From Pseudomonas argentinensis (GTDB lineage Bacteria > Pseudomonadota > Gammaproteobacteria > Pseudomonadales > Pseudomonadaceae), in assembly GCF_001839655.2 (NCBI RefSeq), contig NZ_CP056087.1, forward strand, positions 806,001 to 870,000: a stretch of DNA of 64,000 nucleotides. Direction: 5' to 3'. The notes under the pieces are model-generated. The model was not told the origin of the DNA. It was given only the letters and a program-made list of their open reading frames with translations, and did no database searches. Positions 10,342-32,403 of this stretch are shown piece by piece; positions within the stretch are counted from its first letter, which is position 1; the number at the start of each line of letters is the position of its first letter. Position numbers and translations under genes: made by a program.

Positions 10342-10448
10342 AACCTGTGTCTGCGCCGTATCGGCACCTTTTCCATCGAGGGCGTGGCCCGGCCGTTCTG
10401 GCCGCATACGTCGCTCGATAGCGTGATTCCTAAGCCCCGGTGAGTCCT

Positions 10449-11402
10449 ATGACTGCGATAGCCTCGAGTTCCGCCTCGCTGAACAGCGGCGACCAGCCTC
10501 GGCTGGAGGTGACCGCTGGCATCCACCGCGGTGTATCGCTACCGCTGGATGAAGCGGTGTACTGCATTGGCAGTGGCGCGGCGGCCAACCTGATGCTGCG
10601 TGACGCCGGGGTGGCGGATCGTCACCTGACCCTGCGCTTGAGTGCCCGCCATGTTGGCGTCGAGGCCACCGGGGGCGACGTGCAGGTCATCCACAACGGG
10701 CGTGAGACCCCGGTCGCGCGCGGGCACGGTTACCGCGGCCGACTGCCTGTGGATATCCGTATCGGCACGGCGACCCTGCGCCTGGCCATGCCCCAGACCG
10801 GCGGCCCGGCGGCCAATCCGGTATGGTATGGCAAAGCGCAATGGGCGATTGCCGCGCTGTTCATGTTCATCTGCGCGGGCGCCCTGGCAGTGCTGCGCGA
10901 TGGGCCGATGCATAGCGCCGAGCCTGAGTCGCTACAGCGACTGACACTCGCCGAGGAGCGGCCGGCAGAGGTGCCCCGGGCGGCGTCGCTGCAGCTGGCC
11001 CGCGCCGACCTGGCCAGCCAGGCCAAGGCCGCCGGGCTGAACCATCTCAAGCTCGACACCAGTGCCGGCCAGCTGCGCGTCAGCGGTACCCTGGAACCTG
11101 GGCAGGAGCAGGACTGGCTTGCCCTGCAGCAGTATTTCGATGGCCGTTATGGGCGCCAGTACGTCTTGCGTGGCGATGTCAGCGTGCGCGAAAGCGCCGC
11201 CCGGCCTAGAGTCAACTTCCAGGCCGTATGGTTCGGTGACAATCCCTACGTGATCAATGCAGCGGGCGCCCGCCTGTATCCCGGGGCCCCCCTTGAAGGT
11301 GGCTGGAAGCTCGAGCGTATCGAGGACGGTCAGGTGGTGCTGGCACTGGGCGAGGAGCGCTTCGCACTCACATTAGGGCCCTCGCCAGTGCCTGAGGGTT
11401 AG
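10449..11402 (+). CDS. sctD: SctD-type inner-membrane ring protein (Y4yQ/YscD-like, FHA domain)
   Basis: About 317 residues. The N-terminal part (to about residue 100) resembles the FHA-like cytoplasmic domain of SctD. One membrane helix follows (WAIAALFMFICAGALAVL, about 127-144), then a periplasmic domain of about 170 residues. That is the one-pass layout of the outer ring of the inner-membrane base, slightly shorter than YscD. The ATG at 10449 is preferred over an in-frame GTG at 10440 because GGTGAG lies just before it. It is encoded upstream of sctV as y4yQ is in rhizobia. Assignment is by architecture and context. Confidence 0.75.
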   Translation: MTAIASSSASLNSGDQPRLEVTAGIHRGVSLPLDEAVYCIGSGAAANLMLRDAGVADRHLTLRLSARHVGVEATGGDVQVIHNGRETPVARGHGYRGRLPVDIRIGTATLRLAMPQTGGPAANPVWYGKAQWAIAALFMFICAGALAVLRDGPMHSAEPESLQRLTLAEERPAEVPRAASLQLARADLASQAKAAGLNHLKLDTSAGQLRVSGTLEPGQEQDWLALQQYFDGRYGRQYVLRGDVSVRESAARPRVNFQAVWFGDNPYVINAAGARLYPGAPLEGGWKLERIEDGQVVLALGEERFALTLGPSPVPEG

Positions 11403-11485: not shown

Positions 11486-11857
11486 ATGAAGATCGATTCA
11501 CGCGCCCCGCTGGCGCCGTCGGATGCGGCCTCCGACGTTCGCACTCGCCCGAGTGAGCTGCTTCCTGCTTCCCCCGCCGCGCCACCCGCCGTTCGCCCGC
11601 CCAGCCTGCCGCGCACGCCGCCGCTGCCGACGGTACAGGACGATCTGCACGCCCTGGAGCTGGCGGCGGGCGTCGAGCCCGGGTTGTTCGCCGGCTCGCG
11701 ACCGGCGCAAATTCTCGAAGACATCCTCGAACGCATCCTGCCGTCGCTGCCGCTCGACGGTGAAACCCGAGCCCTGGCCATGAGCCTGGTGCGCGAGGAG
11801 CTCGACACCCGCCAGGCCCTGGATCGCCAGCGCGTCGAAACCGAGGTGGAGCCATGA
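11486..11857 (+). CDS. Unidentified T3SS operon protein (123 aa)
   Basis: The first 50 residues are proline/alanine-rich and probably disordered (for example LLPASPAAPPAVRPPSLPRT). The rest is predicted helical with an LxxxLE-type pattern. It overlaps the TPR gene by ATGA. A nine-codon mini-frame (11460-11489, MSREVWWAK) with its own GAGGCAAGG site ends in an ATGA overlap with this start and could be a leader that couples translation. I do not recognise the protein; a SctP-like regulator or a chaperone partner of the TPR protein are possibilities without direct support. Confidence 0.6.
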   Translation: MKIDSRAPLAPSDAASDVRTRPSELLPASPAAPPAVRPPSLPRTPPLPTVQDDLHALELAAGVEPGLFAGSRPAQILEDILERILPSLPLDGETRALAMSLVREELDTRQALDRQRVETEVEP

Positions 11858-12195
11858 TGCTGCGCGACGAACACGATGCCGCCAAGCTGCTCCAGGGCCT
11901 GGGCGATCTTTACCTGCGGGTTGGTCAGGGGCCTCGCGCCCTGGTGCTGCTGCTGCTGGCCGTGCAGCTCAATGCCGATGATCCGTTGTTGCTGGCGCGC
12001 CTGGCGGCGGCCTTCACCGCCAATGGCGATGGGCAGCGGGCCTTGCACACCCTGGATCGTCTGCGCGGGCTGCAGGGGGAGTCGGCGGCCTGGCTGCTGC
12101 TGCGCAGCCGGGCGCTGTGGAGCGCCGGTCAGCACGGCGAAGCGCGCGCCTGCTTTGCCCGTTACCGCACTTTGCGCCAGGAACGTGAAGCATGA
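11854..12195 (+). CDS. TPR protein of the T3SS (Y4yS/SctG-like)
   Basis: A 113-residue helical protein with about two to three tetratricopeptide-like units (LLQGLGDLYLRVGQGPRALV; LLARLAAAFTANGDGQRALH; LLLRSRALWSAGQHGEARAC). Small TPR proteins at this place act as chaperones for needle subunits (SctG) or as assembly factors. It overlaps both neighbours by four bases (ATGA), so translation is coupled with the upstream gene and with sctV. Confidence 0.7.
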   Translation: MMLRDEHDAAKLLQGLGDLYLRVGQGPRALVLLLLAVQLNADDPLLLARLAAAFTANGDGQRALHTLDRLRGLQGESAAWLLLRSRALWSAGQHGEARACFARYRTLRQEREA

Positions 12196-14330
12196 TGGCG
12201 CGCCTGGGAGCCCTGGCGGGCATGGCGGCGCAACGCACCGAGGTGGTGGTGGTCGCCTTCATGATGATGGCCATCGTGATGATGATCATCCCGCTGCCGA
12301 CCTATCTGGTCGACACCCTGATCGGCATCAGCATCGCCCTGAGCATTCTGGTGCTGATCGTCGCTTTCTACATCCGCAAGCCCCTGGAACTGTCCGCGCT
12401 GCCGGCGCTGATTCTGCTCAGCACGCTGTTCCGCCTGGCCCTGTCGATCAGCACCACGCGGCTGATCCTGCTGCACGGCGACGCCGGGCATATCATCGAG
12501 GCCTTCGGCAAGTTCGTCATCGCCGGCGAGGTGGTGGTCGGTCTGGTGATCTTCTTGATCATCACCGTGGCGCAGTTCGTGGTCATCACCAAGGGCGCCG
12601 AGCGGGTGGCCGAGGTGGCGGCGCGTTTCAGCCTGGACGCCATGCCCGGCAAGCAGATGAGCATCGACAACGACCTGCGCAACGGCGACATCGACGCCAA
12701 CGAGGCGCGCCGCAGGCGGTCCGACCTGCAGCGTGAGAGTCAGCTGTTCGGGGCAATGGACGGCTCGATGAAGTTCGTCAAGGGCGATGCCATCGCCGGC
12801 CTGGTGATCCTCTTCGTCAACCTGATCGGCGGCCTGCTGATCGGCATGCTGTCGCGCGGCATGTCCTTCGCCGATGCCGGGCACACCTACTCGCTGCTCA
12901 CCGTGGGCGACGGGCTGATCGCGCAGATCCCGGCGCTGCTGATCGCCGTGGCCGCCGGCACCGTGGTGACCCGGGTCAACAACGAGGCCGAGCAGGCCGA
13001 CCTGGGCACCGAGATCATCCGCCAGATGGGCAACAGCCAGCGTGCCCTGACGCTGACCGCGCTGATTCTCGCCGCCGTGGCGTTCATCCCCGGTTTCCCC
13101 GCGCCGGTGTTTATCGGCCTGTCGGCCGTGCTGGGGTCGTGCGCCTGGATGCTGCGGCGCCGCCAGCAGCGCGAGGAGCAAGCCGAGGTCGTGGCTGCCG
13201 AGGTCGTCGAGGAGGCGGCTGCCGACCCCGAACCCGAGCAGCAGGCGGACGCCCCAGCCGCTACAGCGGACACCCGGGTGCTGCTGTCGATCGGCCCGGG
13301 TCTGGCCGAAGCGGTACCGCTGCAACCCTTCAAGCAACGCCTCGAGGTGCTGTGCCACGACCTGCACAACGAGCTGGGCATCGAGTTCCCGATGCCGTCG
13401 GTGGTCGTCGACATGGCCGGCTCGACCGGTAGTTACCGGGTCGAGCTGGAAGGCGTGCCGGTGGATCAGGGCGAGCTGAACCCGGCTCAGGTGCTGCTCA
13501 AGGATGACCCCGTGCATCTGCAGCTGCTCGATATCGCTGGCGAGGAGCGCGCATCACCCCTGGGCAGCCGCGCCGGCCTGTGGATCGCCAGCGAACACCA
13601 GGCCGAACTGAGCGACGCGGGGATCGTCTACCTGCGCCCCGATGAAATCCTGCGTGATGTGCTGGCGCGCGTGCTGCGGCGTTATGCCGGGGACTTTCTC
13701 GGTATCCAGGAAACCCGCCAGTTGCTGGCGCACCTGGAGGAAAGCCACGGCGAGCTGGTCAAGGAGGCGCTGCGGGCAGTGCCCCTGCAGCGCATCGCCG
13801 ACGCCCTGCGCCGCCTGGTGGCCGAAGGCGTATCGATCCGCAACCGGCGGGCGCTGCTCGAGGCGATGGTCGAGTGGGGCGGCCGCGAAGGCGATGTGGG
13901 GCGCTTCAGCGACCACCTGCGTACCGCCCTGGCGCGGCAGATCAGCCACCAGCATGCCGATGAGCAGCGGGTGATCGCGGCCTTCGTGCTGGGCTCGGCC
14001 CTGGAGGCGCAGCTGCTCGAGGCGGCGCGTCAGCAGGACACCGGACGCGGCGAGGTCCGTGCCCGGGAAGCCACCCGTGGCCTGCTCAAGGCGCTGCGCC
14101 AGGCGTGCGAGCAATTGCCCGAACGGGTCAAACCGACCCTGGTGGTGCACCCCGAGCTGCGCCGCCGCATCCTGCGCCTGTGCATTCGTGACGAACTGGA
14201 GATGGCCGTGCTGTCCTTTACCGAACTGGCCCCGGAATACAGCCTGCAGGCGATCAAGGTGATCGGCGCGCCGAGCACCGCGCGGGCGGAAAAGAGCCAA
14301 CCTGCACCCGCGCTGGCAGGTGCCACATGA
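12192..14330 (+). CDS. sctV: SctV, type III export gate protein (HrcV/RhcV/FlhA family)
   Basis: 712 residues, normal for the family. The N-terminal half has about eight membrane segments (first VVVVAFMMMAIVMMIIPLPT) and the family signature around LLSTLFRLALSISTTRLILL. A conserved cytoplasmic loop (TKGAERVAEVAARFSLDAMP) follows. The C-terminal half (from about residue 360) is the cytosolic nonamer-forming domain that binds chaperone-substrate complexes. A short charged linker (residues about 318-355, rich in E, A and P) joins the two halves. It overlaps the TPR gene before it and the secretin gene after it. It is the clearest marker that this is a T3SS. Confidence 0.95.
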   Translation: MMARLGALAGMAAQRTEVVVVAFMMMAIVMMIIPLPTYLVDTLIGISIALSILVLIVAFYIRKPLELSALPALILLSTLFRLALSISTTRLILLHGDAGHIIEAFGKFVIAGEVVVGLVIFLIITVAQFVVITKGAERVAEVAARFSLDAMPGKQMSIDNDLRNGDIDANEARRRRSDLQRESQLFGAMDGSMKFVKGDAIAGLVILFVNLIGGLLIGMLSRGMSFADAGHTYSLLTVGDGLIAQIPALLIAVAAGTVVTRVNNEAEQADLGTEIIRQMGNSQRALTLTALILAAVAFIPGFPAPVFIGLSAVLGSCAWMLRRRQQREEQAEVVAAEVVEEAAADPEPEQQADAPAATADTRVLLSIGPGLAEAVPLQPFKQRLEVLCHDLHNELGIEFPMPSVVVDMAGSTGSYRVELEGVPVDQGELNPAQVLLKDDPVHLQLLDIAGEERASPLGSRAGLWIASEHQAELSDAGIVYLRPDEILRDVLARVLRRYAGDFLGIQETRQLLAHLEESHGELVKEALRAVPLQRIADALRRLVAEGVSIRNRRALLEAMVEWGGREGDVGRFSDHLRTALARQISHQHADEQRVIAAFVLGSALEAQLLEAARQQDTGRGEVRAREATRGLLKALRQACEQLPERVKPTLVVHPELRRRILRLCIRDELEMAVLSFTELAPEYSLQAIKVIGAPSTARAEKSQPAPALAGAT

Positions 14331-15604
14331 TCCGCCTGCTGGTGTTGACGCTGTGCTGCCTGCCGCTGCTGGCCCTGGCCCAGTCGCCTCTGGGCGGCGA
14401 TATCGCCCTGGCCACCGGCGAGGGGCGGATCATGCGCTTCAGCGACCCGGTGGAGGCGGTGATGATCGCTGAGCCGGGCGTGGCCGACCTGCAGGTGATT
14501 TCGCCCGGGGTCATCTACCTGTTCGGCAAGCGCCCGGGTCATACCACCCTGGTGGCCCTGGGCAGTGACGAGCGGGAAGTCGCCTCGCTGCAGATCAGCG
14601 TCGGCGGCAACGGTCGGCCGATCACCAGTGCGCTGCGCAGCCGCTATCCGCAGAGCGGTGCCGAGGTGCAGGGCGTGGGCAACCGCCTGGCAGCCCGCGG
14701 CCAGGTCAGCAACGTGGCCGAGGCGCTGGACCTCAATGCCCTGCTCGACCCCACCGGGCAGGACTGGCAGGGGGCGGTAAACACCGCGACCTACGCGGGC
14801 TCTGCCCAGGTGAACATTCGCGTGCGCTTCGCCGAGGTGTCTCGCGAAGAGCTGCTGCGCTATGGCGTGAGCTGGAATGCGCTGTTCAACAACGGCACCT
14901 TCTCGTTCGGCCTGCTCACCGGCGGCAACCTGGCGGCGGAGGCCGCTGCCGGTGGTTCCAACCTGATCGGCGTGGGCCTGGACAGCGGCAATTTCAATAT
15001 CGACAGCGTGCTCGAGGCGCTGCAGAGCAATGGCGTACTGGAGATCCTCGCCGAGCCCAACATCACCGCCATGACCGGTGAGACGGCAAGCTTCCTGGCA
15101 GGCGGCGAGGTGCCGGTGCCGGTGCCGGTGAACAGCGACCTGGTGGGCGTCGAATACAAATCCTACGGGGTGTCGTTGTTGTTCAGCCCCACCGTGTTGC
15201 CGGGCGACCGCATCGGCCTGCAGGTGCGCCCGGAAGTCAGTAGCCTGATGGGCGGTAGTACCCTGGAAGTCTCCGGGTTCCGCGTGCCCTCGTTCCGTGT
15301 GCGCCGCGCCGACACCCGCGTCGAGGTCGGCAGCGGGCAGACCTTTGCCATTGCCGGCCTGTTCCAGCGGGAGAATTCACGGGATCTGGAAAAGGTGCCG
15401 TTGCTGGGCGACATGCCGGTGCTCGGCAACCTGTTTCGCTCCAAGCGCTTTCAGCAGAACGAGACCGAGCTGGTGATTCTCATCACCCCCTATCTGGTCG
15501 AGCCGGTGCAGACCCAGGCCATGCTCACGCCGCTCGACAAGAGCCTGGGCGCCCGTGCCGATGGCCCGGCGCGCAGCGGCTCCTTCGGGTTCCACCTGCA
15601 ATGA
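14327..15604 (+). CDS. rhcC2: Outer-membrane secretin of Tad/RcpA-CpaC type (RhcC2-like)
   Basis: 425 residues with a signal peptide (MIRLLVLTLCCLPLLALAQ). Next comes a pilus-type N-terminal domain (about 25-100; DPVEAVMIAEPGVADLQVIS), a BON-like stretch (about 110-150), and a C-terminal secretin domain (about 230-390) with VPVPVPVNSDLVGVEYKSYG and VPLLGDMPVLGNLFRSKRF. This is the order seen in CpaC/RcpA secretins of Tad pili rather than in YscC/HrcC. It lacks the N0/N1 domains, which are encoded separately at 16890. The split matches rhizobial rhcC1/rhcC2. It overlaps sctV by ATGA. Confidence 0.88.
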   Translation: MIRLLVLTLCCLPLLALAQSPLGGDIALATGEGRIMRFSDPVEAVMIAEPGVADLQVISPGVIYLFGKRPGHTTLVALGSDEREVASLQISVGGNGRPITSALRSRYPQSGAEVQGVGNRLAARGQVSNVAEALDLNALLDPTGQDWQGAVNTATYAGSAQVNIRVRFAEVSREELLRYGVSWNALFNNGTFSFGLLTGGNLAAEAAAGGSNLIGVGLDSGNFNIDSVLEALQSNGVLEILAEPNITAMTGETASFLAGGEVPVPVPVNSDLVGVEYKSYGVSLLFSPTVLPGDRIGLQVRPEVSSLMGGSTLEVSGFRVPSFRVRRADTRVEVGSGQTFAIAGLFQRENSRDLEKVPLLGDMPVLGNLFRSKRFQQNETELVILITPYLVEPVQTQAMLTPLDKSLGARADGPARSGSFGFHLQ

Positions 15605-15618
15605 ACGGGAGTGCCGTG

Positions 15619-16014
15619 ATGAGCCGTCTGGGCCTGTTGTCCACCTGCCTGCTGCTGGGCGCCTGCCAGACCGAGCTGCAGGCCCCGGACTACTCCCCCG
15701 GTTACCAGACCGTCGTCGACGCTAACGGCCAGGCCCTGCTGGTGCCGGATGCCTGCCGGCGCGTCAGCGACGAGGGCCAGCCAGTCGACGAACGCGAGCT
15801 GCTACCTCTGCCGCCTGGCTGCGCCAACAACGCCAATCTGCTGCAGATGGTCGAGCGCCGTGGTGACCTGCTGCGTGGCCGGCAGACCGGGCCGACCCTG
15901 GCCGCGCCGGTGGGCCGCGCGGCGCAGTCGTACCTGGAGGGTTTCGAGACCGATGAGAAGCGCCGCCGTCGTCAGGAGCAGGCAGCGCAGAGCGATACCG
16001 GGGGTGGGCAATGA
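15619..16014 (+). CDS. CpaD/RcpB-like lipoprotein of the T3SS
   Basis: About 131 residues with a lipobox (LLSTCLLLGAC). Its centre has the CpaD-like signature LPPGCANNANLLQMVERRGD followed by LLRGRQTG. CpaD proteins are lipoproteins of Tad pili that accompany the secretin. The start at 15619 has GGGAG seven bases upstream; an ATG at 15601 overlapping the secretin stop would add six residues. It sits directly behind the Tad-type secretin, so it is probably the secretin's partner or pilotin. The C-terminus is charged (EKRRRRQEQ). Confidence 0.75.
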   Translation: MSRLGLLSTCLLLGACQTELQAPDYSPGYQTVVDANGQALLVPDACRRVSDEGQPVDERELLPLPPGCANNANLLQMVERRGDLLRGRQTGPTLAAPVGRAAQSYLEGFETDEKRRRRQEQAAQSDTGGGQ

Positions 16015-16016
16015 GC

Positions 16017-16889: not shown

Positions 16890-17561
16890 GTGAAGGGGCT
16901 GCGAAATCTTGTGATTGTTGCCGGGCGGCGGTTGTTTCATCGACCTGCCTGCGCCGATAGTGGCTCCATCGGGCGTTGTCTGGCGCTGACCCTGCTGTTG
17001 CTGGCTGGCAGTGTGGGCACGGCCCGCGCCGACGTCACGCCACCCTGGTTCGATCAGCCCTACGACTATGTGGTGATCGACCAGGATCTGCGCAGCACCC
17101 TGGAAGCCTTCGGGCGCAACCTTGGCCTGCCGATGGCGATTTCCAGCCGGGTCAAGGGGCGCGCTCAGAGCAACCTGCGCGCGGCCAGTGCCGGCGAGTT
17201 TCTCGACGCCTTGTGCAGCAACGGCGGCCTGACCTGGTTTTTCGACGGCAACATGCTGCATGTGAACAGTGAGGAAGAAATCGAGATTCGCCAGTTCGAA
17301 CCCAGCGGCTTTCAGCTCGACGAGTTGCAGAGCGCATTGGACGAGCTGGGTGTAGCAGGCAAGCATCTGTCGCTGCGCAGCAGCTTTCACGGTGACGGCA
17401 TGCTGATTTCCGGGCCGCCCCCCTACATGGCGCTGGTCCAGCAACGTATCGATCAGCTGCAGAGCCCGGTGGTCGCCGAGCCCGAAGTGGTTCGCGAGCG
17501 AGGCGTGCGGGTGTTTCGCGGCAGTGCCGGCATCCAGGTGGTCAAGGGTGCGGACGAATAA
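16890..17561 (+). CDS. rhcC1: Detached N-terminal secretin subunit (RhcC1/NolW-like)
   Basis: 223 residues from a GTG preceded by GGAGGG. A long N-region and a signal peptide (LALTLLLLAGSVGTARA) lead into the N0/N1 domains of SctC secretins (PYDYVVIDQDLRSTLEAFGR and a later IRQFEPSGFQLDELQSAL ring-forming domain). No secretin barrel is present, so it needs the RhcC2-like protein as partner. In rhizobia the orthologue NolW/RhcC1 likewise opens the operon with nolB and rhcJ. It heads the second T3SS transcription unit here. Confidence 0.85.
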   Translation: MKGLRNLVIVAGRRLFHRPACADSGSIGRCLALTLLLLAGSVGTARADVTPPWFDQPYDYVVIDQDLRSTLEAFGRNLGLPMAISSRVKGRAQSNLRAASAGEFLDALCSNGGLTWFFDGNMLHVNSEEEIEIRQFEPSGFQLDELQSALDELGVAGKHLSLRSSFHGDGMLISGPPPYMALVQQRIDQLQSPVVAEPEVVRERGVRVFRGSAGIQVVKGADE

Positions 17562-17585
17562 ACCTCAGACGAAAGGAGATATCCC

Positions 17586-17786: not shown

Positions 17787-17801
17787 CCACGGGGATTGGC
17801 C

Positions 17802-18209
17802 ATGACAGTCAGTGCAGCAGTCGCCACGGCGACCCCTGCGGCCGCCGGGCAGGATGTCGCCCAGGTATCGCAGAACCTGTTCGAGCATATGGCCAGCCAG
17901 GCCAAGGGCATGCCCCAGGGCGCCAGCCCGAACCAGATCGGCGAAAACCTGATGGAGCGGCTCAACGGTTTCATCGACCGCTCCAAGGGTTTTTCCGATA
18001 GTGCCGCGGTGGAGCGCACGCCGTACATCAGCAGTGCGCCGGTGGATAAAGGCGCCGGGGTCGAGCCGGGCAAGGTCAACGAGCAGCAGATCGACCGCCT
18101 GGTTGGCTCGCTCAGCCGGGTCTTCGATTACTCCATCGAGACCCAGATGGTGGTGCGTGGCGCCACGCAGATTTCCGGCTCTGCCAATACCCTGCTAAGG
18201 GGCCAGTGA
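17802..18209 (+). CDS. sctI: NolB/SctI-like inner rod protein
   Basis: 135 residues. The last 40 residues (from about IDRLVGSLSRVFDYSIETQM, ending in a GSANTLLRGQ tail) match the helical C-terminal signature of inner-rod proteins, which end with a hydrophobic helix and a 'xxNTLLxxQ' type tail. The N-terminal part is Ala/Ser/Gly-rich. It is encoded immediately before sctJ, as nolB is in rhizobia. The ATG at 17802 is preferred to a TTG two codons earlier because GGGGAT sits at the right distance. Confidence 0.75.
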   Translation: MTVSAAVATATPAAAGQDVAQVSQNLFEHMASQAKGMPQGASPNQIGENLMERLNGFIDRSKGFSDSAAVERTPYISSAPVDKGAGVEPGKVNEQQIDRLVGSLSRVFDYSIETQMVVRGATQISGSANTLLRGQ

Positions 18210-18211
18210 CC

Positions 18212-18991
18212 ATGGGTGGGCATCCTTTGCGGTTGTTCGCGCTTTTGCTGCTGACGCTGTTGCTGCAGGCCTGCGATGGCATGGTGCTTTACAGCAACCT
18301 GGGCGAGCGTGAAGCCAACAGCATGGTCGCCGCCTTGCTGCGCGAGGGCATCGCCGCCCAGCGCCAGGTCCAGGAGGATGGCCGGATCACCGTCAGCGTG
18401 CCCCAGGAGCGATTGTCCGAGGCTGTCGCCCTGCTCGACGAAGCTGGCCTGCCCCAACAGCAGTTTTCCAACATGGGCGAGGTGTTCAAAAACAACGGTC
18501 TGGTGTCCTCGCCGGTGCAGGAGCGCGCGCAGATGGTCTACGCGCTCAGCGAAGAGCTGTCGCACACCGTGTCGCAGATCGATGGCGTGCTGTCGGCACG
18601 GGTCCACGTGGTGCTGCCCGACAACGACCTGCTCAAGCGGGTGATCTCGCCATCGTCGGCGTCGGTGCTGATCCGTTACGAAGCCGATACCGACATCGAC
18701 CAGCTGATTCCGCAGATCAAGACCCTGGTTGCCAACAGTATTTCCGGGCTCAACTACGACGGCGTGTCGGTCACCGCGATCAAGGCGGCGGTGCGCAGCC
18801 TGCGTGACGATGCGCGGCCGCCGCTGAGCTCCTTTCTCGGTGTGTGGATGCTCGACGAAAGCGTGACGCGGGCACGTACCCTGTTTTTCGGCGCCCTGTT
18901 GCTGCTGCTCGGCATGGCCGGGGCAGTGGGCTGGCTGCTGTGGCGCGAGCGCCAGGGGCAGGGCACCTACGTGCTGAGGCAAAGCGAGTGA
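18212..18991 (+). CDS. sctJ: SctJ, inner-membrane ring lipoprotein (HrcJ/RhcJ/NolT)
   Basis: About 259 residues: lipobox LLLTLLLQAC, a YscJ/FliF periplasmic domain (LYSNLGEREANSMVAALLRE; SARVHVVLPDNDLL; ASVLIRYEADTDIDQLIPQI), and a C-terminal membrane helix (LFFGALLLLLGMAGAVGWLL). It forms the inner-membrane ring with SctD. The ATG at 18212 is eight bases after AAGGGG; a GTG at 18206 overlapping the previous stop is possible but too close to the ribosome site. Confidence 0.92.
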   Translation: MGGHPLRLFALLLLTLLLQACDGMVLYSNLGEREANSMVAALLREGIAAQRQVQEDGRITVSVPQERLSEAVALLDEAGLPQQQFSNMGEVFKNNGLVSSPVQERAQMVYALSEELSHTVSQIDGVLSARVHVVLPDNDLLKRVISPSSASVLIRYEADTDIDQLIPQIKTLVANSISGLNYDGVSVTAIKAAVRSLRDDARPPLSSFLGVWMLDESVTRARTLFFGALLLLLGMAGAVGWLLWRERQGQGTYVLRQSE

Positions 18992-19614
18992 GCCAGGTGT
19001 CGCGCCAGGCCTGGCGCATGTTGCTGGCCCGGCCGATCACATTCGTCGCCGGGGACTGCCTGGAGGCCGCGCTGCTCGGCGCGGTGCCCCGTGAGCGGGT
19101 GCTCGAGCTGATCGAGCAGCGGCGCTTCGAAGCCCGTCTTGGCGAGTTGCTCCTTTCCTACTACGGATTGCAGCCGTTGAGCGGCGTCGGTGAGGTGGCC
19201 GATGACGACCTGCCGGTGCTGCTCCTGCCGCCGTCGACCTTTACCAGGTTTGCCACGACTTGCGGTGCCTGCCGGCATGCCGTTGCCCTGGCCCGGGAAA
19301 TTCGCGGCCCGCTGGTGCAGCAACTGCGCGAGCGCTTGGGTGATGCCACCTACGACCTGGCCATTGGCTGGCGCGAAGCAGCGGCCGACGCACCCATGAT
19401 GAGGACCGGCGATGCCTTGCTGGCCGCCATCGAGGAAGATGGCCAGCGCTGCGTGGCGGCCTGGCTGGCGGCCCAGCCGCCAGCCCTGCAAGCCTGGCTG
19501 CGCCTGCGCTTCGGTTTGGCTGCGCCCCTGTCGAGCGGCAGTGCCGAAGACATCCAGCTGGTGCGTCAGGTCGCCCTCGCCATCAATGACCCTGCCGAGC
19601 GAGGCGCTGCATGA
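18988..19614 (+). CDS. sctK: SctK-like sorting platform protein (NolU/HrpD type)
   Basis: 208 residues from a GTG that overlaps the sctJ stop (GTGA). SctK proteins diverge strongly, so I assign it mainly by position between sctJ and sctL, where nolU lies in rhizobia, and by its length. It has two cysteines in TTCGACR near residue 90 and no membrane segment. It would link the SctQ-SctL pods to the inner-membrane ring. Confidence 0.7.
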   Translation: MSQVSRQAWRMLLARPITFVAGDCLEAALLGAVPRERVLELIEQRRFEARLGELLLSYYGLQPLSGVGEVADDDLPVLLLPPSTFTRFATTCGACRHAVALAREIRGPLVQQLRERLGDATYDLAIGWREAAADAPMMRTGDALLAAIEEDGQRCVAAWLAAQPPALQAWLRLRFGLAAPLSSGSAEDIQLVRQVALAINDPAERGAA

Positions 19615-20210
19615 GCGCGCTGCCAGACAAGCCGGGCCAGCGCATCCTGCGTGCCGAGGAGGCAGCGCAGTGGCTCGACGGCTACGCCTTCATGCAGGCG
19701 GCCCGCGAGGAGGCCGAGCGAACCCAGGCAGCCTTGCAGCAACTGCGTGACCAGGCGCGAGACGAGGGCCTGGCGGCCGGCCTCGCCGAGGGGCAGCGCG
19801 AAGCGGCGCAGTTGCTGGCGCGCACGGCGCAGCAGGTCGATGACTACCTGGCCGGCCTCGAAGCGCAGATGGCCGACCTGGCGCTGGGCATCGCCCGGCA
19901 GGTGATCGGTGAGCTGGATGACGCCAAGCGCCTGGCCCAGTGCACGCGCCAGGCACTCGGTGCCTTTCGCCACGCCCAGCGGCTGCGCCTGCAGGTGCGG
20001 CCGGATCAGCTCGACGCCGTGGGTGAGCAACTGCGCGACCTCGGCGAGCGCCTCGACGTGGAGGCCGATGACACCCTCGCTGCCGGTCATGGGCGGTTGA
20101 GCAGCCCCCAGGCCAGCGTCGAGCTGGATCTGCATACCCAGCTTCAAGGGCTGCGCCAGGCACTGCTGCCCGGCAGTCTGGAGGGTGGCGATGAACGCGC
20201 CTCTGCATGA
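19611..20210 (+). CDS. sctL: SctL, stator of the T3SS ATPase (NolV/HrpE/YscL)
   Basis: 199 residues with a long helical N-terminal half containing GxxxG-like repeats (GLAAGLAEGQREAAQLLART) and a globular C-terminal half (MADLALGIARQVIGELDDAK; LRLQVRPDQLDAVGEQLRDL), as in the FliH/YscL family. It binds and regulates SctN. It overlaps sctK by ATGA and runs 20 bases into sctN. Confidence 0.85.
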   Translation: MSALPDKPGQRILRAEEAAQWLDGYAFMQAAREEAERTQAALQQLRDQARDEGLAAGLAEGQREAAQLLARTAQQVDDYLAGLEAQMADLALGIARQVIGELDDAKRLAQCTRQALGAFRHAQRLRLQVRPDQLDAVGEQLRDLGERLDVEADDTLAAGHGRLSSPQASVELDLHTQLQGLRQALLPGSLEGGDERASA

Positions 20211-21513
20211 CCTGCTGCCGACCCTGAGCGCGCGCCTGGCCGATGCCCAGCCGCGGCCGTTACGCGGGCGTATTCGCAGTATTCGCGGCACATTGATCCA
20301 GGCCAGTGTGCCGAACGTGGGCATTGGCGAGCTGTGCCGGCTCAGCGACCCGGCCAGCGGGCGGGTGCTCACCGCCGAAGTGGTGGGGTTCGATGGCGAC
20401 GAGGCGATTCTCTCGCCCGTCGGTTCCCTGGAGGGGCTGTCGACTCGGACCGAAATCGTCGCCACCGGCGAAAGCCAGAGCGTACTGGTGGGCGATGCCT
20501 TGCTGGGGCGGGTGATCGGTCCCCTGGGCGACGTGCTCGATGGCGGTGCGCCGGTCAGTGGGTTGCACCGTTATCCCCTGCAGGCCGAGCCGCCTGCACC
20601 CTTTTCCCGGCAGATCGTCGCCCAGCCGATGCCACTGGGCATCCGCGCCATCGATGGTCTGCTCACCGTGGCGCGTGGGCAACGCATGGGCATCTTCGGC
20701 GAGCCCGGCGTGGGCAAGTCGTCGCTGCTGGCCAGCATCGTGCGGCGCAGCGAAGCCCAGGTGATCGTCATCGGCCTGATCGGCGAGCGCGGGCGTGAGG
20801 TGCGCGAGCTGCTCGATGTCCACCTGGGGGCAGAAGCGCGGGCGCGTACCGTCGCCGTGGTCGCCACCTCCGATCGCCCGGCCACCGAACGGGTCAAGGC
20901 GGCGCTGGTGGCCACCGCCCATGCCGAATACCACCGCGACCAGGGCCGCCATGTGCTCTTGCTGCTCGACAGCCTGACCCGTTTCGCCCGTGCCCAGCGC
21001 GAGATCGGCCTGGCCATCGGCGAGCCGCCGACCCGCCGCGGTTATCCGCCTTCGCTGTTCTCGGCCTTGCCGCGCCTGCTGGAACGCTCGGGGCCGGCGG
21101 CCAACGGCAGCATCACGGCGCTGTACACGGTGCTTACCGAAGGCGATGCGGCCCTCGACCCGGTGGCCGAGGAGGTGCGCTCGATCCTCGACGGGCACCT
21201 GGTGCTCAGCGCCGAGCTGGCCCAGCGCAACCACTTCCCGGCCATCGACGTGCTGCAGAGTCGCAGCCGTCTGATGGATCGCGTGGTCGAGCCGGAGCAG
21301 CGGCAGCTGGCCGGCCACCTGCGTGCCCTGATGGCCCGGCACGCTGACATCGAGCTGCTGCTGCGCACCGGTGACTACGTGGCCGGCAGCGATCCACTGG
21401 CTGACGAGGCGATCGCCCGCCAGGCCGCCATCGAACAGTTTCTGCGTCAGGATGCCGCCGAGCCCAGCGGCTTCGACGACACCCTGCGCGCGCTGCGCAA
21501 GGTGCTCGGATGA
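20191..21513 (+). CDS. sctN: SctN, T3SS ATPase (HrcN/RhcN/YscN)
   Basis: 440 residues, the usual size. Walker A is GEPGVGKS (residues 170-177) and Walker B is VLLLLD (255-260); the family signature around SLTRFARAQREIGLAIGEPP is present. The ATG at 20191 sits six bases after GGAGG; a GTG at 20185 is inside the ribosome-site spacing and less likely. It unfolds substrates and strips chaperones at the export gate, anchored through SctL and SctO. Confidence 0.96.
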   Translation: MNAPLHDLLPTLSARLADAQPRPLRGRIRSIRGTLIQASVPNVGIGELCRLSDPASGRVLTAEVVGFDGDEAILSPVGSLEGLSTRTEIVATGESQSVLVGDALLGRVIGPLGDVLDGGAPVSGLHRYPLQAEPPAPFSRQIVAQPMPLGIRAIDGLLTVARGQRMGIFGEPGVGKSSLLASIVRRSEAQVIVIGLIGERGREVRELLDVHLGAEARARTVAVVATSDRPATERVKAALVATAHAEYHRDQGRHVLLLLDSLTRFARAQREIGLAIGEPPTRRGYPPSLFSALPRLLERSGPAANGSITALYTVLTEGDAALDPVAEEVRSILDGHLVLSAELAQRNHFPAIDVLQSRSRLMDRVVEPEQRQLAGHLRALMARHADIELLLRTGDYVAGSDPLADEAIARQAAIEQFLRQDAAEPSGFDDTLRALRKVLG

Positions 21514-21980
21514 GCGCCGTTCAGCAGCTGGACGATCTGCGTCGCCTGCGCGTGCGCCGCGCCGAAGCGCAACTGGCCAATTGGCAGGCGCGCTGCCAGC
21601 AGGCTGCCGCCGAACTGCAGTGCGCCCAGGCGCGGGTCAGCGAGGCACTGGCGCTGCTCGACGACGAGGCCGGGCAACTGCAGGCCCTACTCACCGCAGG
21701 GGCGCTGCCGGTGGGGCAGTACCGCAGCGCGCTGGAGCTGCTCGACGCGCTCGAGGCACAACGGGGCCACCTGGCGCAGCAGGCCGACGAAGCCTCCCGT
21801 CAGCTGGCCGAGGTGCAGGCCGGCCGTGACCAGGCCCAACAGCTCTGGCTGCGTCGGCAATTGCAGTGCGAGGCGCTCGAACCCTTGCTGCAGCACCATG
21901 CTCGGCGCCAGCAGCGCGCCGCCGAGGCCCGTGAGGAAAGCCTGGCCGAAGACCGTCCCCATGGAGCCATGCATCGATGA
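21510..21980 (+). CDS. sctO: SctO, central stalk protein (Y4yJ/HrpO/YscO-like)
   Basis: 156 residues, nearly all predicted coiled coil, rich in A, Q, L, E and R, with two long helices (RVRRAEAQLANWQARCQQAA and ALEAQRGHLAQQADEASRQL). This is the FliJ/YscO layout. It overlaps sctN and sctQ by ATGA. Family assignment rests on fold and position because these sequences are poorly conserved. Confidence 0.8.
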   Translation: MSAVQQLDDLRRLRVRRAEAQLANWQARCQQAAAELQCAQARVSEALALLDDEAGQLQALLTAGALPVGQYRSALELLDALEAQRGHLAQQADEASRQLAEVQAGRDQAQQLWLRRQLQCEALEPLLQHHARRQQRAAEAREESLAEDRPHGAMHR

Positions 21981-22990
21981 ACTGCCGCCAATCGCTGCCC
22001 GTGCCGGTGTTGCCCCTGCTGCCGAAACTCGATGTCGCCAGGCAGGCGCTGCTCAATCGGCTGCTGCGCCGGCAGCTGCCCTGGCAGGGCCTGATCGCGG
22101 GTGTGCGCCTCGAAGTCGCGGTAGGCGGCCCGCCCTTGCAGGACGCCGCCTGTGTCGTGCCGGGGCGGTTGGGCACGGCCGCCCTGCACTTGCATCTGGA
22201 TGCCGCCCTGCTCGAAGGGTTGCTGGCATCGCTGGCGCTGCAGCGCGACTTCGGGGGCCTGCCGGCGGCGCTGCAGAGCGTGCTGCTGGAAAAGGCGCTG
22301 CTGCCCTGGATCGAGCCGCTCGAAGCCGCCTTGGGCCAACCCGTAAGCCTGGACGCCGACTCGCAACCCGATGACCTGATGCTCACTGTGCAACTGAGTG
22401 CAGACGGTGCGCCGCTGGGCACGCTCACCCTGCAGTTGAGCCATGCCGCTGCGCAAGGCGTCGCCGATCTGCTGGAGCGCTACCTGCCGGTGGCGCGCCA
22501 TCCGCTGCCGACCTTGCAGCTGGGCCTGGCCCTGCAGCGTGGCTGGCAGACCCTGAGCCTGGGCGAGCTGCGCAGCCTGCAGCCGGGCGACGTACTGATG
22601 CTCGACTGCCCAGTGGATGCCGACGGCCTGCTGGTGCTCGCCGGTGGCCATCGGCAGGCCCGTTGCAAACGCCAGCAATCCGGCTTGCAGCTGCTCGAAG
22701 CCTGGCAACCAATCAACCCGACGATGGAGAACGCCATGGGGCAAGACGCCGACGATGCGCAACTGGACGATGTGCCGCTGACCGTGGTCTGCCAGATCGG
22801 CAGCCTGGAGATGCCCCTGGGGCAACTGCGCGAGCTGGGCGAGGGCAGCGTGCTGGCATTGCCCGACGCCGATGTTCAGCGGGTCGAGCTGCTGGTCAAT
22901 GGCCGCTGCGTGGGGCGTGGTGAGCTGGTCGCCATCGGCGATGGGCTCGGGGTGCGCCTGACCCGGTTCGCCAGCCCATCAGGCTGCTGA
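21977..22990 (+). CDS. sctQ: SctQ, C-ring/sorting platform protein (HrcQ/RhcQ)
   Basis: 337 residues. The N-terminal part is variable. Two SpoA (surface presentation of antigens) modules follow: one near 185-235 (LGELRSLQPGDVLMLDCPV) and one near the end (LTVVCQIGSLEMPLGQLREL; RVELLVNGRCVGRGELVAIG). The last codons (SGC and stop) lie inside the left end of a palindromic element at 22981, so the native C-terminus was probably changed slightly by its insertion. It forms the cytosolic pods with SctK and SctL. Confidence 0.88.
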   Translation: MNCRQSLPVPVLPLLPKLDVARQALLNRLLRRQLPWQGLIAGVRLEVAVGGPPLQDAACVVPGRLGTAALHLHLDAALLEGLLASLALQRDFGGLPAALQSVLLEKALLPWIEPLEAALGQPVSLDADSQPDDLMLTVQLSADGAPLGTLTLQLSHAAAQGVADLLERYLPVARHPLPTLQLGLALQRGWQTLSLGELRSLQPGDVLMLDCPVDADGLLVLAGGHRQARCKRQQSGLQLLEAWQPINPTMENAMGQDADDAQLDDVPLTVVCQIGSLEMPLGQLRELGEGSVLALPDADVQRVELLVNGRCVGRGELVAIGDGLGVRLTRFASPSGC

Positions 22991-23149
22991 AAAAAACTAC
23001 CTGCGTTGCCATCGCGGCGTTAAAAAGAGGCTCGAAATGCTCATTTACACCAGTAAAGTCGCCCGCGACTCCGACCGCTTCCTCACCTCCTTTTGCGGGG
23101 CCGCCTCCGGTGTTGCGCTGACTGCCTCGGTAACGTTTTTCAGCGGCCT
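22981..23149. mobile_element. MITE-like palindromic element between sctQ and sctR
   Basis: Terminal inverted repeats AGGCTGCTGAAAAA (22981) and TTTTTCAGCGGCCT (ending 23149) bound about 169 bases with no coding capacity. The sctQ stop codon lies in the left terminal repeat. Elsewhere in the operon genes overlap or nearly touch, so this gap is clearly extra. No obvious target duplication is seen. Confidence 0.7.
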
Positions 23150-23152
23150 GCT

Positions 23153-23812
23153 ATGACGGATTACCAACCGAACCTGCTGGAAATCATCCTGGTCGTCACC
23201 ACGATCGGCTTGATTCCCCTGGCGGTAGTGACCCTGACCGGCTTTCTGAAAATCTCCGTGGTGCTGTTCCTGATTCGCAACGCCCTGGGCGTGCAGCAGA
23301 CGCCCCCGAACCTGGTGCTCTACGGCATCGCCCTGATCCTCGCGGTATACGTCACCACGCCGCTGATCGGCGAGATGTACCGCGAGGTGGAGGGGCGCTC
23401 GATCAGTTTGCAGAACGCCGAGGAGTTGCGCGAGCTGGGCGACGCCCTGCATGCGCCCTTGCAGACCCACCTGTCACGTTTCGCCAACCCGTCCGAGCGC
23501 GCCTTCTTCGTGCAGGCCACCGAAACCGTATGGTCCGAGGAAGCCCGCGCTGACCTGCGCGACGATGACCTGGTGGTGCTGATTCCGGCGTTCGTCAGCT
23601 CCGAGCTGACCCGCGCCTTCGAGATCGGCTTTCTGCTCTACATCCCCTTTCTGGTGATCGACCTGCTGGTGGCCAACGTGCTGATGGCCATGGGCATGAT
23701 GATGGTGTCGCCGACGCTGATCTCGATTCCCCTGAAGATATTTCTGTTCGTCGCCGTCAGCGGCTGGTCACGGCTGATGCACGGCCTGATCCTCAGCTAC
23801 GGGGGAGGGTAA
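23153..23812 (+). CDS. sctR: SctR, export apparatus membrane protein (HrcR/RhcR/FliP)
   Basis: 219 residues with four hydrophobic segments. Family signatures are clear: LTGFLKISVVLFLIRNALGV near residues 29-48 and IPFLVIDLLVANVLMAMGMM plus ISIPLKIFLFVAVSGWSRL in the C-terminal third. The ATG at 23153 lies three bases past a palindromic element and has no strong ribosome site, so the element may affect its translation. Confidence 0.95.
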   Translation: MTDYQPNLLEIILVVTTIGLIPLAVVTLTGFLKISVVLFLIRNALGVQQTPPNLVLYGIALILAVYVTTPLIGEMYREVEGRSISLQNAEELRELGDALHAPLQTHLSRFANPSERAFFVQATETVWSEEARADLRDDDLVVLIPAFVSSELTRAFEIGFLLYIPFLVIDLLVANVLMAMGMMMVSPTLISIPLKIFLFVAVSGWSRLMHGLILSYGGG

Positions 23813-23815
23813 CGC

Positions 23816-24085
23816 GTGGGCCAGGACGTATTTCTGTCGTTGATGAAACAGGCGCTGATGACCGTGCTGCTGCTCAGCGCCCCGGCGCTGGGCGTGGCCA
23901 TTCTCATCGGCCTGGGGGTCGGCCTGCTGCAGGCGCTGACCCAGATCCAGGACCAGACCCTGCCGCAAGCGGTCAAGCTGGTGGCGGTGCTGCTGGTGCT
24001 GGTGCTGATCGGCCCGCTGTTGGCCACCCAGGTAGCGGCGCTGGCCAGCCACGTGCTGGACAATTTCCCTGCCTGGACGCGCTAG
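23816..24085 (+). CDS. sctS: SctS, export apparatus membrane protein (HrcS/FliQ)
   Basis: 89 residues with two membrane helices (MTVLLLSAPALGVAILIGLG and VKLVAVLLVLVLIGPLLATQ) and the FliQ motif LQALTQIQDQTLP between them. The start is GTG, well placed after GGGGGAGGG, which itself lies within the end of sctR. Confidence 0.95.
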   Translation: MGQDVFLSLMKQALMTVLLLSAPALGVAILIGLGVGLLQALTQIQDQTLPQAVKLVAVLLVLVLIGPLLATQVAALASHVLDNFPAWTR

Positions 24086-24088
24086 GGC

Positions 24089-24907
24089 ATGGATGCCGAT
24101 ATCGGTCTGGGCATCGCCGAGATCGCTTATCCGGTGATTTCGGCGGCGGCCCTGGCGGTCTGTCGGGCGCTCGGCCTGGTGTTCATCACCCCGGCCTTCA
24201 ATCGCCTGGGGCTGACCGGGATGATCCGCAGCTGCGTGGCCGTGGCGATTTCCGCGCCGATGTTTCTGCCGGCGTTCTCGGCGCTGACCGCCCTGGAGGA
24301 CTACGGCAGCTTTTTTCTCGCCGGCCTGATGGTCAAGGAATTCCTCATCGGGGTGACCGTGGGCCTGCTATTCGGCATTCCGTTCTGGGCTGCCGAAGTG
24401 GCCGGTGAGCTGGTCGACCTGCAGCGTGGCTCGACCATGGCACAACTGGTCGACCCCTCCGGTGCGGGGGAGTCCGGGGTCACCGCGACCCTGCTCAGCG
24501 TCACCCTGATCACCCTGTTCTTCATGTCCGGCGGCTTTATCCTGATGGTCGACGGCTTCTACCACAGCTACCAGCTATGGCCGGTCACCGCGTTCACCCC
24601 GGTGATCGCCAGCGCGGCGCTGGAGGCGGTGCTGGCGATTCTCGACCAGGTGATGCGCATCGGCGTGCTGATGGTGGCACCGCTGATCATCGCCCTGCTG
24701 GTGGCGGACATGATGCTCGCCTACCTGTCGCGCATGGCGCCGCAGATGAATATCTTCGACCTCTCGCTATCGATAAAGAACCTGATCTTCACCTTTTTGA
24801 TGGTGCTCTACTGCGGCTTCCTGATCCCGCTGATGCTCGAGCAACTGGCGGAATTTCGTGGCACCGTCGAGGTGCTCAAGACGCTGTCCGGCGCGGGTGA
24901 GCCCTGA
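24089..24907 (+). CDS. sctT: SctT, export apparatus membrane protein (HrcT/FliR)
   Basis: 272 residues, mostly hydrophobic with about six to seven membrane segments. FliR/SctT signatures are visible (LVFITPAFNRLGLTGMIRSC; GELVDLQRGSTMAQLVDPSG; LAYLSRMAPQMNIFDLSLSI). It begins three bases after sctS and its stop shares a base with the sctU start. Confidence 0.94.
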   Translation: MDADIGLGIAEIAYPVISAAALAVCRALGLVFITPAFNRLGLTGMIRSCVAVAISAPMFLPAFSALTALEDYGSFFLAGLMVKEFLIGVTVGLLFGIPFWAAEVAGELVDLQRGSTMAQLVDPSGAGESGVTATLLSVTLITLFFMSGGFILMVDGFYHSYQLWPVTAFTPVIASAALEAVLAILDQVMRIGVLMVAPLIIALLVADMMLAYLSRMAPQMNIFDLSLSIKNLIFTFLMVLYCGFLIPLMLEQLAEFRGTVEVLKTLSGAGEP

Positions 24908-25962
24908 TGGCCGGCAACAGCGGCAGCGAGGAGAAATCCCAGCCGGCCTCCGACAAGAAGCTGCGCGAGGCACGGCAGAAAGGCCAGGTCTCGAAAAGCC
25001 AGGATATGGTCTCGGCGGTGGTGCTGCTCGGCTGCTCGGTGTGCATCGCCTTTCTCGCCAGCGTCGCCGAATCACGGGTGCGCGGTCTGCTCGACCTGGC
25101 GGCGACCATCTACGTGGAACCCTTCGCCACGGTCTGGCCACGCCTGCTGGAAAGCGCCCAGCAAGTGCTGCTGCGCACCGCCCTGCCGATCCTCGGGGTG
25201 ACGGTGGTCTGCGTGATCCTCACCAATATCGTGACCATGCGCGGCGTGCTGTTTTCCGGCGAACCGATCAAGCCGGAAATCTCGCGCATCAACCCGGTCG
25301 AAGGCGCCAAGCGCATCTTTTCCATGCGCAACTTCATCGAGTTCCTCAAGAGCCTGGTCAAGGTGGTGGTGCTCTCGGTGGCCTTCTATGTGGTGGGGCG
25401 CATTGCCTTGCAGGCGCTGATGGAGTCGTCGCGTTGCGGGGCCGGCTGTATCGAGTCGGTGTTCTTCGTGCTGCTCAAACCGCTGCTCGCCACGGTGCTG
25501 CTCACCTATCTGCTCATCGGCGGCGTCGACGTGCTGCTGCAGCGCTGGCTGTTCCAGCGCGAGATGCGCATGACCCGCAGCGAACAGAAGCGCGAGCGCA
25601 AGGACATGGACGGCGATCCGCTGATCAAGCGCGAACGCCAGCGCCAACGCCGCGAGATGCAGGCCCTGAGCAGCCGCAAGGTCGGCATCGCCCATGCCAC
25701 CCTGATGATCGGCAGCGAAGACGGCTGGCTGGTCGGCGTGCGCTACGTCCGTGGCGAAACCCCGGTGCCGGTGCTGGTGTGCATTGCCATGGGCGAGGAC
25801 GCCAAAGCCCTGCTGGCGCAGTCGGTGAGCCTGGGGGTACCCCGTAGCCCGGACGCCAGGCTGGCGGCCGAGATCGCCAAGCGTGCGGTGAAGGGCGAGC
25901 CGATTCCGGCCAATACCTTCCAGCCGGTGGCCGATGCGCTGGTTGCGGCGAGGCTGATCTGA
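24907..25962 (+). CDS. sctU: SctU, export switch protein (HrcU/RhcU/FlhB) with NPTH replaced by GSED
   Basis: 351 residues. Four membrane segments are followed by a cytosolic domain. The normal linker EQKRERKDMDGDPLIKRERQ is intact (residues about 226-245). The autocleavage motif NPTH, expected 34 residues after the start of DGDP, is replaced by GSED (269-272) and followed by a recognisable remainder (VGVRYVRGETPVPVLV). The reading frame is undisturbed and nothing points to a sequencing shift. Family members cleave themselves at N-P to switch substrate class; this one is predicted not to. It is the last gene of the export operon. Confidence 0.95.
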   Translation: MAGNSGSEEKSQPASDKKLREARQKGQVSKSQDMVSAVVLLGCSVCIAFLASVAESRVRGLLDLAATIYVEPFATVWPRLLESAQQVLLRTALPILGVTVVCVILTNIVTMRGVLFSGEPIKPEISRINPVEGAKRIFSMRNFIEFLKSLVKVVVLSVAFYVVGRIALQALMESSRCGAGCIESVFFVLLKPLLATVLLTYLLIGGVDVLLQRWLFQREMRMTRSEQKRERKDMDGDPLIKRERQRQRREMQALSSRKVGIAHATLMIGSEDGWLVGVRYVRGETPVPVLVCIAMGEDAKALLAQSVSLGVPRSPDARLAAEIAKRAVKGEPIPANTFQPVADALVAARLI

Positions 25963-31705: not shown

Positions 31706-32403
31706 GCCTATAGTCCCTCGAGGATTATGGTTGTTGTACGCACTGGTGACGGTTGCGCACAGGCGCACCAGGTCATGCTCGGGTTCGGTTCGCATGGAGG
31801 CCCGATGCGGCGGTCGCTGGCGGAAGGTGCCGGTGCGGCAGTTTGAATAGGCAAGAAGATCCCTCCAGAACGTACTTGTTTTTGTATATCACCGCAGTAC
31901 TGCAAAGCGGTGTCGATCAGAGGCGGGGAGTACTTCGCAATTAACGTGCCGCGCCGGGATCTGCCTCGGCGATTGCTAACTGATTGATTGTCAATGACCA
32001 CGGCAGCCTGGTTGACCGAGCCCGTTCGGAACTTCGGATAGCGCTGCAAAAGCTGTTCGGGAATCCGACCCGGGCCGGGTGCGTCGAGGGTGGTCTGGTT
32101 GCATGTCGCGTTGCTCCTGACAGTCTGTTCAGCGCCGCCCTCGCGTCCTGTTAAGGGCCATGTGTCGCCGTGAAAAGCTGCGAAATCCGTCGCGATCAGG
32201 TTGTTACATCAATGTGACGATTGCTTGAATGAAAGGGCAGCAGACCGCGCTTTTTGCGTGCACCGTTCCCGTTTCCGTCAACCAGCGGGGCGTCACGCAT
32301 TGGCCTGCGCCGTTCAACAAGTGCCATAGCCACCTTCTTTCGCACAAGGAGCGCAGCGCCATTTTGCGACCTTGTCCACTTATCGAGCCGGAGCGCAGAG
32401 CCG
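31706..32403. promoter_or_regulatory. Divergent control region between the regulator and giant paralog B
   Basis: About 700 bases with no convincing gene and lower GC than its surroundings. It contains the shared motif in reverse (GCCGTGAAAAGCTGCGAAA, 32167-32185), about 220 bases before the paralog B start; its complement matches the motif of paralog C at 16 of 19 bases. A GGTTGTTACATCAATGTGACG stretch follows at about 32199. No sigma-54 site or HrpL-type box was recognised here. Confidence 0.5.

Follow-up and report, generated by a model that had tools for sequence, protein, structure and literature searches.

Absence of the NPTH autocleavage motif from SctU in an Rhc-family type III secretion system of Pseudomonas argentinensis

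Introduction

Does a type III secretion system (T3SS) need an export gate protein that cleaves itself? The NPTH motif of SctU and FlhB proteins has been termed highly conserved, and autocleavage at this motif is a proposed trigger or requirement for substrate switching (PMC10333785, PMC5158082, PMC7911332; here and below, statements that cite an article refer to those parts of it that were available). The question is raised by a 64,000-nucleotide stretch of the Pseudomonas argentinensis genome (contig NZ_CP056087.1, positions 806,001 to 870,000), here called the window, which carries a rhizobial-type (Rhc) T3SS whose SctU has no such motif. The features at the centre of the analysis are the following.

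24907..25962, + strand: sctU (rhcU type), encoding a 351-residue export gate protein without NPTH
25714..25725, + strand: codons 270-273 (SEDG), counterpart of the NPTH turn of other SctU and FlhB proteins, placed by alignment and structure alignment
25876..25878, + strand: codon 324 (Ala), at the +54 position of SctU

The cleavage turn of SctU

The frame at 24907-25962 (+) is open, and its product matches Pfam Bac_export_2 at 241.6 bits (cut-off 24.4). The best NCBIfam model for the protein is SctU (TIGR01404), at 267.7 bits, which is under the equivalog cut-off of 358. Both the DGDPLIK and the GETPVPVLV blocks are present, and the stretch from the first to the second reads ..HATLMIGSEDGWLVGVRYVRGETPVPVLV. 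Where NPTH would be expected the protein reads MIGSEDGWLVGVRYVRGETPVPVLV, and no N-P dipeptide was found when the C domain was searched. In the sequence alignment S270-E271-D272-G273 face N-P-T-H, and in the structure alignment (rows 15, 18-20) residue 271 faces P263 of EscU. The loss of the motif from this turn had been claimed in an initial annotation of the window, together with the open frame and the two intact blocks, and was confirmed by direct reading and by both alignments. That annotation took GSED (269-272) as the counterpart of NPTH; it was right that N-P is missing there, but the aligned counterpart is SEDG (270-273), so that GSED begins one residue early.

Relatives of the window protein at 92-98% identity have the turn IGSEDGW, IGGEDGW or IGSEEGW, and the closest named ones, with SctU 96-98% identical, are Pseudomonas sp. 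G34, P. punonensis, Pseudomonas sp. URMO17WK12:I2 and P. argentinensis. Because these relatives have the same kind of turn, without N-P, a single mutation or sequencing error at NPTH was ruled out. The flagellar FlhB of the same genome retains NPTH. In family profile, transmembrane part and C-domain fold the window protein resembles the canonical SctU and FlhB proteins (YscU, EscU, SpaS, HrcU, FlhB), which unlike it have N-P and cleave. Its C-domain fold, common to the FlhB/SctU family, is intact in the predicted structure. The best Foldseek matches were uncleaved mutants; since a cleaved structure is divided into two chains, this was not read as a sign that the window protein stays uncleaved.

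Loss of NPTH across the Rhc family

The same change, sought by alignment, is present not just at 92-98% identity but across the sampled Rhc family. NPTH is missing in 34 of 34 non-redundant Rhc SctU rows, and N-P is retained in all 50 flagellar and T3SS rows outside two NPTH-less clades, the 50 being near matches of two queries and no random sample. Loci were collected by genome and plasmid searches, with P. syringae T3SS-2 and R. etli CFN42 not included by name, and most of the 314 matching genomes were left unread at the motif. The SctU tree was built from 92 of the 159 rows; those dropped were at least 85% identical to a kept row or shorter than 300 residues, the single row of the latter kind being a Halomonas fragment (L058) that is NPTH-less too.

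The Rhc rows without the motif come from Pseudomonas and Stutzerimonas (L034-L048), Mesorhizobium (L049, L050, L059), R. etli Mim1 (L055), R. johnstonii (L056), Klebsiella aerogenes (L057), Halomonas (L058), Bradyrhizobium (L060, L061, L064), Bosea (L062), and Sinorhizobium, Ensifer and Phyllobacterium (L063, L065-L068), as well as L070-L079 and L085 of the phylum sample. Both systems of strain NGR234 have an NPTH-less RhcU (pNGR234a, L053; pNGR234b, L054). One Rhc relative (L085 / L099) sits on a deep, long branch, has an RhcC2-like secretin and is NPTH-less; it may mark how early the loss occurred. In K. aerogenes (L057, L179) the Rhc-type gene set lies on an IncF-type plasmid typed as conjugative, and the SctU protein accession of this plasmid is identical on a K. 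pneumoniae plasmid.

Within Rhc the four NPTH columns vary freely, and G260, G277, R279, Y280 and P288 are conserved at 97-100%; as far as can be read from sequence, the cleavage site is gone and the surrounding domain has been kept. A low ratio of non-synonymous to synonymous substitution rates (dN/dS) indicates that the SctU C domain is under purifying selection, the 6-codon loop itself being too short for a usable value.

Absence of the ruler protein SctP

The initial annotation had also found no obvious SctP ruler gene, which holds for the window locus and for the sampled Rhc family. Since sctO (21510-21980) and sctQ (21977-22990) overlap by 4 bases, there is no space for sctP between them, and no HrpP/YscP-like gene lies there. 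The only two Flg_hook (PF02120) matches in the genome are at 3.55 and 3.57 Mb, close to FlhB-type genes, and HpaP (PF09483) gave no match in this genome. Domains of either SctP type were sought within 15 kb of sctU in 49 genomes, and were found at none of the 18 Rhc loci, at none of the 16 loci of the second NPTH-less clade described below, and at 9 of 15 NPTH-bearing T3SS loci. The resulting comparison (0/34 NPTH-less versus 9/15 NPTH loci, Fisher p 2e-6) ignores kinship, the independent events numbering two.

In 36 Rhc loci, a count that includes near-copies, 508-671 bases separate sctN from sctQ, which has room for SctO alone, versus 1103-2111 bases in 9 NPTH loci; some NPTH spacings are overestimates owing to a partial sctQ match (L115). 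A spacing value needs matches to both genes and is absent for 8 NPTH-less and 10 NPTH loci; 14 NPTH loci had values, 5 of which were excluded for other gene orders or wide gaps, and none came from a second-clade locus. The absence of SctP from Rhc systems has already been published (PMC3574062, section 20), and its pairing with the loss of NPTH is what this analysis adds.

The gatekeeper SctW (HrpJ family) was rejected as a discriminator: it was found close to 8 of 15 NPTH loci and to none of the 18 Rhc or 16 second-clade loci, so that 7 NPTH loci are also without it. Elsewhere in the genome, at 3548607-3549124, a stand-alone 113-residue FlhB C-domain protein that starts just past the cleavage position is encoded directly downstream of a FliK-like gene.

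A second NPTH-less clade and the origin of the losses

NPTH is also missing from a Burkholderiaceae T3SS clade (L133-L155, L163-L168, L175, L176), in 23 of 23 loci and 8 of 8 non-redundant rows. Examples of its site sequences are YSTQY, YSPQH, FSARH, HSANA and YSPRV, the last being that of B. cenocepacia and B. multivorans. The B. cenocepacia-type T3SS is probably the beta-Rhc group of Gazi 2012, the name being matched by the wording in the available part of that paper. Like the window system, it has an SctU without NPTH and no SctP domain close by. Unlike the window, it has adjacent RhcC1- and RhcC2-type matches, the arrangement of an unsplit SctC, and unlike Rhc it branches with NPTH-bearing systems and retains a Tyr, Phe or His at the +54 position.

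In a tree of SctU alone, which requires two changes for the 42 NPTH-less rows, a single origin was not rejected (approximately unbiased test, p-AU 0.116). In a six-gene tree with the motif columns excluded, the Burkholderiaceae clade (6 rows, support 100) joins five systems that carry NPTH (support 98), and the six-gene set rejected a common origin for the NPTH-less SctU proteins as a whole (p-AU 1.2e-5). Both trees were quick searches, with support from the Shimodaira-Hasegawa-like approximate likelihood ratio test (SH-aLRT) only. On the six-gene result, NPTH has been lost independently in Rhc and in the Burkholderiaceae clade.

The +54 tyrosine and a proposed mechanism

In Xanthomonas an uncleavable HrcU (N264A) leaves HrpB2 secreted and loses secretion of translocon and effector proteins, and in HrcU Y318D efficient cleavage is prevented while late secretion is active without the ruler HpaC (PMC3040844). 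The tyrosine lies 54 residues past the Asn of the motif (EscU Y316 / YscU Y317 / HrcU Y318). It is present at +54 in 39 of 50 NPTH rows versus 0 of 34 Rhc rows, where the residue is A (11), I (8), G (4), L (3), F (3) or another; in the window it is Ala324. The uncleaved, ruler-less and Tyr-less state found together in Rhc suggests a permanently late-permissive gate.

We consider it probable, at roughly two chances in three, that the window SctU is a working, uncleaved, ruler-independent export gate of an Rhc T3SS, and that N-P was lost in the Rhc ancestor. This is the best explanation because the motif is absent in all Rhc rows read, no SctP domain was found, the fold is predicted to be intact, the C domain is under purifying selection and the tyrosine is lost. 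On this proposal the Rhc ancestor would have lost the N-P autocleavage site, with the SctP ruler/switch protein missing too, and the cytoplasmic domain of SctU would have kept its fold, the cleavage loop turning into an ordinary beta turn and the protein remaining uncut. Pilus, translocon and effector proteins would then be exported with no need of cleavage or ruler, and the uncleaved C domain would most likely be locked in a late-permissive state, aided in Rhc by the loss of the +54 Tyr. We infer that SctU is not cleaved in the cell, that its state is late-permissive with no ordered switch, and that the window system is active. Export without a cleavage-based switch, as suggested in the initial annotation, would thus be a property of the sampled Rhc family (34/34 NPTH-less, no SctP).

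Several points weigh against this proposal. SctU may be cleaved elsewhere or by a protease; a 2022 review table gives RhcU as 'Autoprotease', with no data seen in the part of the review available (PMC9695568). The structure model is poorer outside the C domain (mean pLDDT, the predicted local distance difference test, 78; predicted template modelling score, pTM, 0.46). As HrcU N264A abolishes late secretion, a protein that lost cleavage and nothing else would be impaired, so that compensation has to be assumed; the Tyr change studied in Xanthomonas was to Asp, and Rhc mostly has A, I, G or L. The second clade retains an aromatic residue or His at +54 (Y5, F2, H1 of 8), and therefore the Tyr step is not general and this clade must work otherwise. 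SctP is poorly conserved, and 6 of the 15 NPTH loci are likewise without a match; three of these six that were inspected (L116, L120, L170) have an open reading frame (ORF) at the SctP place (187, 247 and 390 aa). Some of the NPTH-less loci are close to the end of a contig (5.5 kb for G490), so that the SctP search covered less sequence there.

A wider proposal is more tentative, and we hold it to be possible without favouring it: at least two T3SS lineages would have independently dropped the SctP-SctU switch, the Rhc C domain would be a natural counterpart of HrcU Y318D, there would be no export hierarchy, and cleavage would be needed only under a ruler.

Alternative explanations

It is possible, though we think it unlikely, that the loop self-cleaves by other chemistry (for instance slow cleavage between Asp and Pro, or an N-to-O acyl shift at Gly-Ser) or that a protease cuts the linker, giving a switch without NPTH. 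G-S is found at the window turn, D-P in one relative (L066), and an invariant Ser at the Asn column in the second clade (8/8), but in Rhc Gly is followed by S, G, V, T, I, Q, E or D, the Rhc-I turn is one residue short, and there is no conserved nucleophile. N-P dipeptides elsewhere in the last 130 residues (9/34 Rhc and 2/8 second-clade rows) could offer another site, but all are located either in the linker or well towards the end of the domain, and none is NPxH. The autoprotease label in the review table (PMC9695568) would also fit such cleavage, whereas the N-to-D mutants of YscU and EscU were solved as single chains, aligned across the site.

Slightly less likely again is the one-class substrate programme offered as an option in the initial annotation, in which only early substrates are exported without cleavage. 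Xanthomonas HrcU N264A behaves in this way (PMC3040844), and NopA alone is still found outside an rhcN insertion mutant of S. fredii CCBAU25509, every other Nop being lost (PMC6865838). However, S. fredii NGR234, in which both RhcU are NPTH-less, accumulates NopA, NopB and NopC (pilus-related), NopX (translocon), and NopL and NopP (effectors) outside the cell (PMC10970691). S. fredii CCBAU25509 and CCBAU45436, which have the same NPTH-less RhcU, secrete seven Nops (PMC6865838), likewise of pilus-related, translocon and effector classes (NopX undetected in CCBAU25509). Because NPTH-less S. fredii strains secrete several substrate classes, a strict one-class programme is unlikely for the Rhc family. 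Self-cleavage seems dispensable throughout the Rhc branch, since every Rhc relative read, including the reported secretors, is NPTH-less.

That the system is decaying, or has suffered one local mutation, with the loss of NPTH as the mark of a dead gene, is improbable. This T3SS type was found in just 5 of 36 same-genus genomes sampled, its own included; the window system is nearer Rhc-II than Rhc-I, and the Rhc clusters shown to be functional as of 2014 were Rhc-I only, Rhc-II activity being unproven then (PMC3973906). Against decay, the core genes read are open and colinear with low dN/dS, and the change is common to Pseudomonas, Stutzerimonas, rhizobia and Klebsiella, among them strains for which secretion has been reported. 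Least probable of all is that the stand-alone FlhB-C paralog (own genome, 3,548.9 kb), whose 113 residues start just after the cleavage-site position, supplies a cleaved-like C fragment in trans, as its gene stands directly behind the FliK-like gene, 2.7 Mb away from the T3SS.

Organization of the Rhc locus

Rhc systems are marked by a secretin split into RhcC1 and a Tad-like RhcC2, by gene order, and by the lack of an HrpP/YscP gene (PMC3574062, PMC3973906, PMC3459982). The island at 10440-25962 contains sctD, an SctY-like chaperone gene, sctV, a pilus-type secretin gene, a small lipoprotein candidate, an SctC N-domain gene and sctI-J-K-L-N-O-Q-R-S-T-U. Its genes other than sctU are as follows.

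10440..11402, + strand: sctD (YscD cytoplasmic and Y4YQ C-terminal domains)
11854..12195, + strand: SctY-like tetratricopeptide repeat (TPR) chaperone (NF052415 at 67.5 bits, cut-off 70)
12192..14330, + strand: sctV (TIGR01399 above cut-off)
14327..15604, + strand: rhcC2-like secretin (pilus-type N domain and secretin domain)
15601..16014, + strand: lipoprotein candidate adjoining the secretin, with weak CpaD similarity (under cut-off in both libraries)
16911..17561, + strand: rhcC1-like gene, N-terminal ring domains of SctC (start uncertain)
17802..18209, + strand: sctI / nolB-like inner rod candidate (by similarity and position; no Pfam match)
18206..18991, + strand: sctJ (NCBIfam above cut-off)
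18988..19614, + strand: sctK, nolU type (by similarity and position; start uncertain)
19611..20210, + strand: sctL
20185..21513, + strand: sctN ATPase
21510..21980, + strand: sctO, with a 4-base overlap with sctQ (by position; FliJ/HrpB7 matches under cut-off)
21977..22990, + strand: sctQ (NCBIfam TIGR02551 above cut-off)
23093..23812, + strand: sctR (Pfam FliP; real start probably inside)
23816..24085, + strand: sctS (by conserved position and similarity to other loci)
24089..24907, + strand: sctT (Pfam)

The split secretin is present, with RhcC1 (N-domains) and a separate pilus/Tad-like RhcC2; the rhcC1-like gene is based on a match to TIGR02516 positions 2-136, under cut-off, in ORF 16011-17561. 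The lipoprotein candidate at 15601-16014 sits between the two secretin genes and is a possible pilotin retained from the Tad source of the secretin. The I-J-K-L-N-O-Q-R-S-T-U order is found in the window and is identical in L034-L045 (in L046-L048 sctO was unmatched by BLAST). In the six-gene tree the window groups with Stutzerimonas, P. extremorientalis, P. fluorescens, Klebsiella-plasmid and rhizobial systems including NGR234 (21 rows, support 100).

The pNGR234b system of NGR234 (Rhc subgroup II type, Gazi 2012) resembles the window in the gene order of the main block, in the split RhcC1 and Tad-like RhcC2, in leaving no space for SctP and in its NPTH-less SctU, which is 47% identical; its sctU stands behind the secretin block, whereas that of the window stands behind sctT, in a Pseudomonas host. 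Rhc subgroup I (NGR234 pNGR234a, Bradyrhizobium, Mesorhizobium) is likewise NPTH-less, with similar sctN-sctO-sctQ spacing and no SctP space, but its turn is one residue shorter, and sctV of pNGR234a lies in a separate block.

Beside sctU, a 1224-residue ORF (26060-29734, - strand) encodes a candidate secreted or translocon protein. When an hrpK-like gene, a mark of Rhc subgroup II, was sought, this ORF gave no significant Pfam or NCBIfam match; remote relatives of its product are encoded close to other Rhc loci (L037, L044, L058, L104). At 29972-31795 (- strand) lies a 607-residue regulator candidate with an OmpR-type DNA-binding domain and a STAND-like ATPase, matched in 11 of the 15 loci L034-L048. 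Two small conserved ORFs, 10147-10308 (53 aa) and 17586-17786 (66 aa, no match in Pfam or NCBIfam), are pilus or needle subunit candidates, 45-69% and 34-61% identical, respectively, in several distant Rhc loci.

Implications

No statement that Rhc SctU lacks NPTH was found in the literature searched, and as most subscription journals lay outside it, one may be in print. The sequences suggest the opposite of the 'Autoprotease' label given to RhcU in the available part of the review (PMC9695568). Should an entire family that includes experimentally active members function in its absence, autocleavage would be no general need of export. SctP went undetected in both of the lineages that independently lost NPTH, which suggests that cleavage serves the ruler, and the purpose of cleavage would become testable by comparison. 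The Rhc systems of symbionts would, if this is true, be natural switchless T3SSs.
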